DNA of 64,000 nucleotides from NCBI GenBank assembly GCA_023663135.1, contig JAMPIE010000012.1:1-64000 (forward strand), in the 5' to 3' direction. Numbering within the stretch: the stretch's first letter is position 1; each line of letters begins with the position of its first letter. The DNA comes from Alloprevotella sp. (GTDB lineage Bacteria > Bacteroidota > Bacteroidia > Bacteroidales > Muribaculaceae). A program made the translations under genes and the position numbers. Shown here one piece after another: positions 25,720-33,689 of this stretch. The notes under the pieces are model-generated. The model did no database searches. It saw only the letters and a program-made list of their open reading frames with translations, and was not told the origin of the DNA.

Positions 25720-26361
25720 TTATTTTAATGTGACGAGGGTCAGGCCGTCGCGAAGCGGGATGATGACACAGGTTTTTACCCTCGGATGTGTCGCTATCCA
25801 GGTGTTAAAGCTCCTTATCGCCTCGGTCTGGGTGTCGTGAGCTTCGGGGTCGGTCACCTTCCCTCCCCATAGGGTGTTGTCACATACTAAGGTGGCTCCT
25901 GTGGACATGTGGGGCATCAGTTGCTCCACATACTGCCTGTATTCTCTCTTGTTGGCATCGATATAAGCCATGTCCCAGGGTCCGGCCTGGCGGCTCAACG
26001 GCTCAATCATCTCTAAAGCATCGCCTATGTGGAGGGTGATGTCGGCTCCGCGGGAGGAGGCCTCAAGGCGTCGTCTGAGCTCCTCCTCCATCTCGTCGTC
26101 GGCCTCGATGGTGTGGAGTCTCGCTCCGGCGGGCATCCCCTCGGCTATGGAGAGGGTGGAATAGCCGGTGAAGGCTCCGAGCTCTATGATGCGCTTCGGG
26201 GCAGCCATCTCGGTCAGGAGTTTGAGCAGCCGCCCCTGGAGATGCCCCGAACACATGCGGGGGTAGAGGTGATGGAGGTTGGTGTGCCGCCATATCTCAT
26301 AGAGAGCTTTGGGTTCAGGCGATATGTTTTGCAGGATATACTCCTCAAGAGCGTCGGTCAT
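25720..26361 (-). CDS. Class I SAM-dependent O-methyltransferase
   Basis: 213 residues of the O-methyltransferase family 3 (COG4122) type: GRLLKLLTEMAAPKRIIELG, FTGYSTLSIAEGMP, HTIEADDE, WDMAYIDANKREY and LVCDNTLWGGKV. The metal-binding Asp/Asn set (D in YIDANK and D-N in CDNTLW) is present, so it is likely a divalent-metal-dependent catechol-type or small-molecule O-methyltransferase. The start ATG overlaps the pyruvate kinase stop by four bases. The aroQ-pyk-methyltransferase order is conserved in Bacteroidales. Confidence 0.88.
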   Translation of the reverse strand: MTDALEEYILQNISPEPKALYEIWRHTNLHHLYPRMCSGHLQGRLLKLLTEMAAPKRIIELGAFTGYSTLSIAEGMPAGARLHTIEADDEMEEELRRRLEASSRGADITLHIGDALEMIEPLSRQAGPWDMAYIDANKREYRQYVEQLMPHMSTGATLVCDNTLWGGKVTDPEAHDTQTEAIRSFNTWIATHPRVKTCVIIPLRDGLTLVTLK

Positions 26362-27374
26362 TGGCAGTGAGTAGGGTTAAGAGCGGCTTCAGCGATGCGG
26401 TGGGTCCAGTCCACACATTCAATCGGATATTTACCCTTGGCGGTTTCACCCGTGAGCAGAAGAGCGTAGACACCGCTGCGGGCGGCAAAGGTGATGTCCA
26501 TCACCTCGGCGCGCGTTGGGCTTGGGGAGTCCATCATGGAGTGGAGCAGCTGGGTTGCTATAATCAGGGGCTTGCCTTGACGCCTGCAAAGCTCTATGCA
26601 GCCCATTTCCAAGACACCTACGCGCTCAAGACCCATGGTGGCTCCCAGGTCGCCGCGAGCGCATAGGAGGCCGTCGCTTGCTTCAAGGATCGAGGCCATG
26701 TTCATCACCCCCTCAGGACACTCTATCTTGGCAAAGACTTTCGGTCCCGAGGAGCCGCAACACTCTTTGACGGCCTCCACGTCGGCTGCCGTCCTGACAA
26801 AGGAGTGGGCTATTATGTCCACTCCCCCCTCGATTGAGGCCTCGATGGCGGCGCGGTCGCGCTCCGTCAGGCTCGGCAGGGCGTTGAGCTCTATGCCGCG
26901 GAAGTTGACAGTCTTGCGCGACCCTAAGCGTCCCCCTTTCGTCACGCGACACTCCACAGCCTCTGTGGTGACGCGCTCCACTCTGAGCATTATCTCGCCA
27001 TCATCCACGGCGGCAATCATCCCCTCCTTCACCAGCGAGCAGATGCCCGAGGCGGTGATGCATATGTGGCGCAGAGAGGTGGGCTCTGCCCCACCGTCGG
27101 TGATGGTGATGCGGGCACCTTCGAGCAAGGGGAGCTCGTCGGCATCGGAGGCGAGCGCGGTGGTTCTCACCTCAGCCCCTTTCGTGTCCACAAGAATTAT
27201 CTGCGTGGGGTCGACCGAGCGCACCATCTTTGTCATCTCTATAATTTCCTCCGGCGTGGCATGAGCCGAGTTGAGCCTCACCCCCCTCATGCCGGCCCGA
27301 ACCATGGCCTCCACCATTGTGGAGGTGGCGCGTCCCGAGGCCAGGGTAGCCATCACTATTGGTGTCGTCATCAT
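26358..27374 (-). CDS. pyk: Pyruvate kinase, short form lacking the C-terminal domain
   Basis: 338 residues compared with about 470-490 for usual pyruvate kinases. The A and B domains are complete: K+-site RLNSAH, DTKG, VDDGE, the catalytic KIE (FAKIECPEGV), ARGDLG, IATQLLHSMM, SPTRAEVMD and TGETAKGKYP. The protein ends where the C-terminal allosteric domain would begin, and the next gene overlaps the stop by four bases, so no remnant of that domain follows. It would convert PEP and ADP to pyruvate and ATP but lack the usual effector site. It overlaps aroQ by four bases upstream. A full-length paralogue elsewhere is possible. Confidence 0.85.
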   Translation of the reverse strand: MMTTPIVMATLASGRATSTMVEAMVRAGMRGVRLNSAHATPEEIIEMTKMVRSVDPTQIILVDTKGAEVRTTALASDADELPLLEGARITITDGGAEPTSLRHICITASGICSLVKEGMIAAVDDGEIMLRVERVTTEAVECRVTKGGRLGSRKTVNFRGIELNALPSLTERDRAAIEASIEGGVDIIAHSFVRTAADVEAVKECCGSSGPKVFAKIECPEGVMNMASILEASDGLLCARGDLGATMGLERVGVLEMGCIELCRRQGKPLIIATQLLHSMMDSPSPTRAEVMDITFAARSGVYALLLTGETAKGKYPIECVDWTHRIAEAALNPTHCQ

Positions 27375-31710: not shown

Positions 31711-31752
31711 AAATGGCGTGGGCCCGCAATCACTGCGGACCCACGCCCATTT
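31711..31752. terminator. Hairpin terminator between the Fur gene and the DASS transporter
   Basis: AAATGGCGTGGGCCCGCA and its near complement (TGCGG...CATTT) form a long stem with one bulge and one mismatch around ATCAC. It lies between convergent genes and probably serves both strands. Confidence 0.75.
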
Positions 31753-31789: not shown

Positions 31790-33304
31790 TCAGAAGATGC
31801 CATTGATGCCGCATAAGATCAGCACCAAATAGCCGAGGATGAGGCCTACGACACCCATGATGATACCTGTGGTGGCCATATCCTTCTGCTTGATAAAGCC
31901 GGTGGCATCGGCCAGAGCATTGGGAGGAGTGGAAATGGGGAGAATCATGGCGAGCGATGAGCAGATGGCCACGCCGATAAGGAGGGTGGTGACTCCGCCA
32001 AAGGATGCGAGATTGCTCTCCATCGACTGACCGGCGATGGCGAGGATAGGTACGAAGAGGGCTGCGGTGGCCGTATGACTGATAAAGTTGGCCATGAGGT
32101 AGCAAAGTAGACCTGAGCCTATGATAATGAGCAGGGGCGACCACTGGTCGAAGGGAATGGCCTCGATCATGTCGGCAGCGAGGCCGCTTTCACGCATGGC
32201 CACGCCAACAGCAAATGCGCCGGCAATCATCCAAAGGATGCTCCAGGAGATTTGCTCGAGGTCGCGCTTGGTGATCACGCCGGCCATGCAGAGCACACCC
32301 ACTGGGAGCATGGCCACCACATTGGCGTTGACGCCGGTGAAGGCATCGGAGAGCCAGAGGAGGACGGTCACGGCAAAGGTGATGTAGACAATGATATCTT
32401 TCATGCTCCCTTCGTGATGACTCTCAATCTCAAGATGTATAGTCTTTTGCTTGAAGGGGAAGAGCTTGCGGAGCACTATCCAGGCAAAGAAAATCATTAC
32501 GATGGTGAAGGGCACCATCACCATCATCCACTGGCCGAAGCCGATGCCAAGGTTCATGCCGGCGGGGTCGTTGAGAAATTTGAGGGCAATGGCGTTGGGA
32601 GGTGTGCCAATGGGGGTACCGATGCCGCCGATGTTGGCTCCGATGGGTATGGCCAGTGCGAGGCCTATCTTACCCTTACCGTCGGCCGGGAGAGCGCGGA
32701 GCACGGGGGTGAGGAATGTGAGCATCATGGCCGCAGTGGCAGTATTGGACACAAACATGGAGAAGAAGGCTGTGACCAGAAGAAAGCCCAGGAGCACATT
32801 TTCGCTCTTGGTGCCAAAGGGGGTGAGAAGCACCTTGGCCAGCTTCACGTCGAGGCCGCTCTTGGTGGCGGCGATGGCAATAATGAAACCGCCGATGAAG
32901 AGCATGATGGTTGGGTCGGCAAAGCAGTGGAGGATGGCGGTGTTACTTACAAGATTTTCCCACTTGCCCCCCATACCGTCGCTCTGAAAAAACCATAGAG
33001 CACTGTTGGAAGTGCAGAAGAGGAGGAGCACCACCACTACGAGAGATGTGGTCCAGGCCGACACCACCTCGAAGAGCCACATCAGGGCAGCGAAAGCAAA
33101 GATGGCGAGCACGCGCTGCTCAATGGGGTTGATGCCTGGCAATCCGTAGATGTCAGATGGGGCAATCCAGAGAAAGAGAGGCAAGAGAATGGCGATGGCC
33201 AGCTTGACAAACTTTATCCAGGCCGGATTTTTGTCATTTCTATGCTCCTTTTTCCAATGATGGTAGGCTTCTACAAGAGAATAGCCATGAAAGATAGTAA
33301 ACAT
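31790..33304 (-). CDS. DASS/SLC13-family divalent-anion:Na+ symporter
   Basis: 504 residues with about 11-13 hydrophobic segments. A first SNT motif (VSNTATAAMM) and a second one reading FISHTATAALF (His in place of Asn) are at the expected half-repeat positions, as are PIGANIGGIGTPIGTPPN and PISTPPNALA, the sodium/substrate loops of the dicarboxylate:Na+ symporter family. Likely substrates are succinate, fumarate, malate or citrate; import is usual, export is possible. The gene is preceded by a cobalamin riboswitch about 170 bases upstream with no gene between, so B12 should control its expression. Confidence 0.88.
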   Translation of the reverse strand: MFTIFHGYSLVEAYHHWKKEHRNDKNPAWIKFVKLAIAILLPLFLWIAPSDIYGLPGINPIEQRVLAIFAFAALMWLFEVVSAWTTSLVVVVLLLFCTSNSALWFFQSDGMGGKWENLVSNTAILHCFADPTIMLFIGGFIIAIAATKSGLDVKLAKVLLTPFGTKSENVLLGFLLVTAFFSMFVSNTATAAMMLTFLTPVLRALPADGKGKIGLALAIPIGANIGGIGTPIGTPPNAIALKFLNDPAGMNLGIGFGQWMMVMVPFTIVMIFFAWIVLRKLFPFKQKTIHLEIESHHEGSMKDIIVYITFAVTVLLWLSDAFTGVNANVVAMLPVGVLCMAGVITKRDLEQISWSILWMIAGAFAVGVAMRESGLAADMIEAIPFDQWSPLLIIIGSGLLCYLMANFISHTATAALFVPILAIAGQSMESNLASFGGVTTLLIGVAICSSLAMILPISTPPNALADATGFIKQKDMATTGIIMGVVGLILGYLVLILCGINGIF

Positions 33305-33473
33305 ATGGATAATGATGGTTAATATTCCTTATATATACACTATGGAGGAGAAAGGGAGCAACAAGACCGGGCCATTGCATCTCGCAACGGGGCAAGGGAG
33401 GCCTCGGACGGGACACCATTGCCACGGATTGCCCTCACTCTCCAATCCACGAGAGAGCTAAAAGAGGTAGATG
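33305..33473 (-). other. Leader between riboswitch and transporter
   Basis: No gene. It presumably holds the riboswitch expression platform. The last 40 bases before the ATG are AT-rich, as is common for Bacteroidota translation initiation regions. Confidence 0.5.
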
Positions 33474-33670
33474 TCTCTGGCCGGTATCCTGACTTAGACC
33501 TCCCCGGCAGAAGCCTTCCCGGGGGCCGAAGCTCCCAGTGGCCTTTGTTGTTTCATCCGCAGGGGGTGACAATGAAATGCCTGTCCTTACAGTAGCGGGT
33601 CTGTCCGGGAGTCTCACCCGGTTCCCGTTTAATGAGCCTCCCCCTGGGGGGAGGCCCAACCAAAGACGGG
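33474..33670 (-). promoter_or_regulatory. Cobalamin riboswitch
   Basis: Read on the minus strand, the core blocks occur in order: GGTT with a GCCTCCCC/GGGGGAGGC helix, TTAAACGGGAACCGGGTG, CCCGCTACTGTAAG, GCCACTGGG, CCCGGGAAGGC, and the B12 box AAGTCAGGATACCGGCC at about 33478-33495 (plus coordinates). These match the AdoCbl/cobalamin riboswitch consensus (Rfam RF00174) almost base for base. The next gene downstream on this strand is the DASS transporter. Riboswitches of this class usually repress when B12 is bound. The expression platform (33305-33474) has no clear terminator that I can see, so translational control is possible. Confidence 0.95.
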
Positions 33671-33689
33671 TGCAAAGGTAAGCATTTTT

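Follow-up and report, generated by a model that had tools for sequence, protein, structure and literature searches.

A cobalamin riboswitch in front of a DASS-family carboxylate carrier gene in Muribaculaceae and other Bacteroidales

The window, i.e., the whole stretch of 64,000 nucleotides of Alloprevotella sp. DNA that was analysed, carries on its minus strand a cobalamin riboswitch aptamer followed directly by the gene of a DASS/SLC13-family transporter. The features of the locus are:

33673..33680, minus strand: Bacteroidota -7 promoter element TACCTTTG, motif TAnnTTTG, at the 5' edge of the aptamer
33462..33679, minus strand: cobalamin riboswitch aptamer (RF00174; cmscan 95.0 bits, E 2.2e-22)
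33437..33457 (approximate), minus strand: hairpin with stem CTCTCT/GGAGAG and 8-nt loop CGTGGATT, from covariation in relatives
33305..33461, minus strand: remaining 5' leader, presumed expression platform, 157 nt, in which no intrinsic terminator-like site was found
31790..33304, minus strand: DASS/SLC13-family transporter, 504 aa, motifs SNT and SHT; ATG at 33304, stop codon ending at 31790
31711..31751, minus strand: strong inverted repeat GGCGTGGGTCCGC...GCGGGCCCACGCC, read from the sequence 3' of the DASS gene

The covariance search with RF00174 gave a match over the full model (positions 1-189) that scores 95.0 bits (gathering score 31.5), and R1, a covariance model built in this analysis, scores the same interval at 118.7 bits. 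The aptamer that an earlier note, made from the letters alone, had placed at 33474-33670 is thus real, but slightly short at both ends in that reading (33679-33462). It is the sole Rfam match within the window and one of two RF00174 elements in the genome, the second of which lies upstream of a TonB-dependent receptor gene. The sequence TAnnTTTG occurs a single time on the minus strand near the locus, at 33680-33673, where the aptamer begins, and most aligned aptamers have a similar sequence at the corresponding place. A separate promoter between 33474 and 33304 would have made the transporter independent of the aptamer; however, no -7 box lies between the aptamer and the DASS start codon, and a scan of this interval for sigma-70-type promoters found nothing. 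The 157-nt gap also holds no ORF, in agreement with the earlier note, which had the transporter as the next gene. Judged by sequence, the placement of the -7 box and the spacing of 157 nt indicate that the riboswitch would be transcribed in the leader of the DASS gene.

Nearly all leaders in relatives have a hairpin directly 3' of the aptamer, with a loop that starts CGDGG; the hairpins of g17, L186 and L187 deviate in loop or stem. Comparison of 21 different stems showed standard inner four pairs every time, with compensatory changes. The stems were selected for at least four pairs, and the percentage paired is therefore partly given by construction, but this does not affect the changes in pair type, i.e., UA, UG, CG, AU and GC at pair 1, and AU, GU, CG, GC and UA at pair 4. 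The variety of pair types implies that conservation probably extends to the part of the switch 3' of the aptamer. No excess complementarity was found for an L5-L13 kissing loop (P13 hairpin loop against L5, 10.5 compared with 10.43 in shuffled pairs).

The DASS protein scores 240 bits with TIGR00785 'dass' (cut-off 198.6) and 141 with PF00939 (cut-off 27), and likewise exceeds the cut-off of PF03600 (CitMHS); its start codon is backed by the conserved N-terminus MFTIFHG (alignment A1). The first SNT motif is present and invariant across aligned members, and its surroundings, SNTATAAMM, match VcINDY. The second motif reads SHT (residues 409-411), as noted earlier, with SNS or SHS in other members; the histidine replaces the asparagine of the VcINDY motif, which may alter ion use. 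SHT is also found in yeast PHO90, the best single-sequence match. The proposal that SHT marks a B12 circuit did not hold, since the motif occurs in DASS members without a riboswitch and the riboswitch-bearing g17, G140 and G190 have SNS.

Among solved structures, the protein is closest to VcINDY and other cotransporters (E 2e-52) and matches LaINDY-type exchangers much more weakly (4e-14). Furthermore, Thr190, two residues past the first SNT, occupies the position, worked out from the residue numbers given in PMC7553777, at which members of the exchanger subgroup, DASS-E, have an arginine; the sodium surrogates in DASS exchangers are an arginine and a histidine (PMC7553777). By these sequence features the protein is a member of the Na+-cotransporter branch, in which Na+-driven import is usual (PMC7553777). 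It agrees with this branch in exceeding the cut-offs of TIGR00785 and PF00939, but differs from VcINDY in the second motif (SHT instead of SNT), in a longer N-terminus and in its predicted control by a B12 riboswitch. The inverted repeat that follows the stop codon is a likely terminator, and the gene after DASS is a convergent Fur-family gene, both of which suggest that the DASS transcript is monocistronic.

A survey of the genus found that 6 of 34 genomes hold a gene closely matching DASS, whether whole, broken or at the end of a contig, all six with RF00174 upstream and codirectional; a seventh genome, G002, has only a marginal match with 29% identity. At family level, DASS is present in 66 of 397 genomes. 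The DASS genomes were searched with RF00174, and the surroundings of their DASS genes with the covariance model built here, which placed a riboswitch 5' of DASS and in the same orientation at 37 loci: 30 in Muribaculaceae, spanning at least nine genera, and seven in other Bacteroidales (L152, L154, L155, L163, L186, L187 and L205), including Prevotella and Bacteroidaceae records. Every model match in 1.66 Mb around the relatives' DASS genes lies upstream of a DASS operon and in the same direction, and none was found away from these operons. With 37 loci and all matches so placed, chance pairing is excluded, the probability per locus being 3e-4 by a rough estimate that ignores shared ancestry. 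The comparison of relatives proposed in the earlier note therefore confirms that riboswitch and transporter stay together.

Many DASS genes lack a riboswitch. The number of label changes for the riboswitch is 15 on a tree of 133 rows and 13 on a tree of 63 rows, where 12 of the 13 are forced by well-supported branches. Because one or two of the changes are contig breaks (G320, G146), the trees indicate that the riboswitch was gained or lost at least about 10 times, with gains and losses counted together as indistinguishable. The DASS of the window groups with G015, G214, G142-C29 and G223-C31, separately from a subclade linked to a MetE-like gene; G223-C31 (86% identity) is riboswitch-less and porin-linked, and G142 and G223 each hold one DASS of either subclade.

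The riboswitch is followed directly by DASS, with nothing recognised 3', in the window, G015, G142-C29, G315 and L187, and G214 stops at the contig edge. At about 20 loci in several clades the riboswitch is shared by DASS and a MetE-like gene, which lies 3' of DASS in g1 (G021 and G007), g4, g9, g13, g26 and g30, and 5' of it in g14, g22, G001 and G320. The MetE-like protein has 360-380 aa, stays below the cut-off of the PRK06520 and PRK06233 'methionine synthase' models and matches Meth_synt_2 weakly. In g17 the corrinoid adenosyltransferase CobO/BtuR sits between riboswitch and DASS, and in L186 a BtuB-type receptor gene lies 3' of DASS. L205:5476-11087 holds riboswitch, DASS, AccC, biotin carrier (BCCP) and an MmdA-like carboxyltransferase on one apparent transcript; accC begins 11 nt past DASS and has no -7 box before it. 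A cobalamin riboswitch thereby precedes genes of the acyl-CoA carboxylase/methylmalonyl-CoA decarboxylase type. MetE-like partners are more common than these propionate-pathway partners. Most riboswitch-less Muribaculaceae members, and some riboswitch-bearing ones, have Porin_O_P or DcaP 3' of DASS.

Several loci show further variation. In the MetE-linked subclade, riboswitch and DASS are separated by a conserved ORF that encodes about 70 aa (MKCPRCEKEFPFEF..., with a CxxC motif) (L126:2495-2930, L082:5770-6000, L124, L077, L079 and L037; shortened in L080). In G001 (L036:763-1362) an internal in-frame deletion has removed residues of about 32-332 from DASS and left a 199-aa ORF after the MetE-like gene; truncated DASS genes adjoin MetE-like genes in G007 and G142-C44 as well. 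In G209 (C2:667-2139) a MetE-like gene stands right after the riboswitch with no DASS adjoining, and the DASS of this genome is elsewhere and riboswitch-less.

The genome of the window encodes both subunits of methylmalonyl-CoA mutase (MCM; G000:C33), MetH, one DASS and a DcuA/DcuB homologue, and CbiC is absent from it. With MCM and MetH present and CbiC missing, the organism is a user of B12 that very probably makes no corrin ring. MCM does not discriminate between carriers with and without a riboswitch, since 65 of 67 DASS genomes have it in either case.

Known RF00174 leaders (btuB, cob/cbi, metE and others) share with this locus the aptamer class, the position in the 5' leader and, among the relatives, transcripts with BtuB-like, CobO and MetE-like genes; the difference is that a DASS carboxylate carrier would be controlled here. 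No earlier report of a cobalamin riboswitch on a DASS carrier was found in the literature searched, the coverage of which is incomplete, so that one may exist elsewhere; within this literature the DASS carrier represents a class of target that is new for this familiar riboswitch.

The closest physiological parallel is the related Xylanibacter ruminicola, which accumulates succinate without B12 (PMC11575231) and shares with the present case the pathway from succinate to propionate, its B12 logic and the presence of MCM. In Xylanibacter, riboswitches adjoin many of the genes with the strongest response to B12, but none of its four riboswitches is near propionate-pathway genes, and control was judged post-translational, with B12 acting mainly via the mutase itself (PMC11575231); a text search of that paper found no mention of DASS, a symporter or an anion transporter. 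Here, in contrast, the riboswitch precedes a carboxylate carrier.

We propose that transcription would start from the -7 box at the aptamer edge and yield a single-gene transcript with the riboswitch at its 5' end, which with plentiful B12 would lower production of the di-/tricarboxylate carrier and with scarce B12 would release it. Repression by B12 is likely by analogy with known cobalamin riboswitches and because BtuB-like, CobO and MetE-like genes are under the same switch, and the predicted substrate is a C4-dicarboxylate. Without B12, MCM would stop and succinate would replace propionate as end product, and the additional carrier would let succinate leave the cell or be exchanged. Such export or exchange is the most economical reading of the carrier's purpose and the most likely, though unproved; it fits low B12, and succinate taken up to be decarboxylated would be called for only when B12 is at hand. 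The claim on regulation is strong and that on transport moderate, and to the combined proposal, a B12-repressed carrier that serves succinate export or exchange when MCM lacks its cofactor, we give about an even chance.

Besides the aptamer match and the recurrent pairing, evidence for this proposal comes from the CobO (g17), BtuB-like (L186) and propionate (L205) genes on shared riboswitch transcripts and from the DcaP and Porin_O_P porins as DASS partners in relatives. Na+-coupled succinate efflux has reportedly been described in Selenomonas. Against export stand the usual import by the Na+-cotransporter branch, the porins that often accompany DASS in riboswitch-less relatives, and the DcuA/DcuB homologue of the genome, which could export instead; in A. 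succinogenes, DASS is regarded as uptake and Dcu as efflux (PMC6011838). The overflow circuit suggested in the earlier note is accordingly upheld in part: the presence of MCM, the succinate build-up in Xylanibacter and the L205 operon agree with it, but MCM is non-discriminating and the recurrent MetE-like partner needs another link, which may be mere co-membership of the low-B12 response. It would also be odd for MmdA in L205, as a propionate-forming enzyme, to be off with B12.

The strongest alternative is that the riboswitch turns on import of di- or tricarboxylates (e.g., fumarate, malate or citrate) as an electron acceptor or carbon source at low B12. The nearest structures are Na+-driven importers, and the outer-membrane porins paired with DASS in relatives include DcaP, which in Acinetobacter serves di- and tricarboxylate use (PMC12338516). 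Imported succinate, however, would be useful for decarboxylation with B12 and not without it, which makes this reading rather unlikely. We know of no low-B12 need for another dicarboxylate.

It is improbable that the carrier supports methionine supply when B12 is short by importing what the MetE-like enzyme would use as substrate or methyl donor. The riboswitch shared at about 20 loci and the resemblance of the enzyme to PRK06520/PRK06233 speak for this, but no MetE-like enzyme was found in the genome of the window, none of the window's DASS subclade shows such a partner (G214 ending at a contig edge), riboswitch and DASS also occur with CobO, BtuB-like, MmdA or nothing, and in G209 the riboswitch and MetE-like gene stand without DASS.

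A riboswitch left over from another, lost gene, with incidental control over the transporter, is suggested by the genes found between riboswitch and DASS elsewhere (MetE-like in G001 and g14, CobO in g17). Among relatives with the riboswitch, the nearest (G015, G214 and G142) show the direct pairing free of remnants, it recurs repeatedly elsewhere, and the missing MetE-like gene is a property of the window's branch (G015, G214, G142-C29 and G223-C31) and hence no sign of a true target that has since been lost. A leftover, a case the earlier note had allowed for, is thus highly improbable, and a relic of a deleted MetE-like gene was rejected. Import of metal-citrate or a B12 precursor is hardly credible as the main reading, even though PF03600 (CitMHS) matches as well as PF00939 and metal or corrinoid transporters are often under cobalamin riboswitches, because cbiC is missing from 40 of the 49 DASS genomes tested, that of the window included, so that a supply of cobalt to B12 synthesis does not explain the pairing, and because close riboswitch-less relatives pair DASS with carboxylate-type porins.

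Among the major products of Bacteroidales in gut and rumen are succinate and propionate, which affect host and community. The recurrent pairing of riboswitch and DASS suggests that B12 supply governs the movement of succinate and similar acids into or out of these bacteria. With a recurrent riboswitch on the dicarboxylate carrier, gene regulation would become a further layer that connects vitamin supply with succinate cross-feeding and is testable in culturable species. More tentatively, and with somewhat less than an even chance, Bacteroidales may repeatedly have put C4-dicarboxylate transport under B12 riboswitches, such that B12 directly sets succinate exchange in the community, and elements like that of L205 might be B12-activated switches from succinate to propionate.

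Two other genes on the minus strand of the window encode a peptidase of the clostripain family (C11; 28793-30142) and a barrel-only pyruvate-kinase protein of 338 aa, below the usual pyruvate kinase length (26358-27374).
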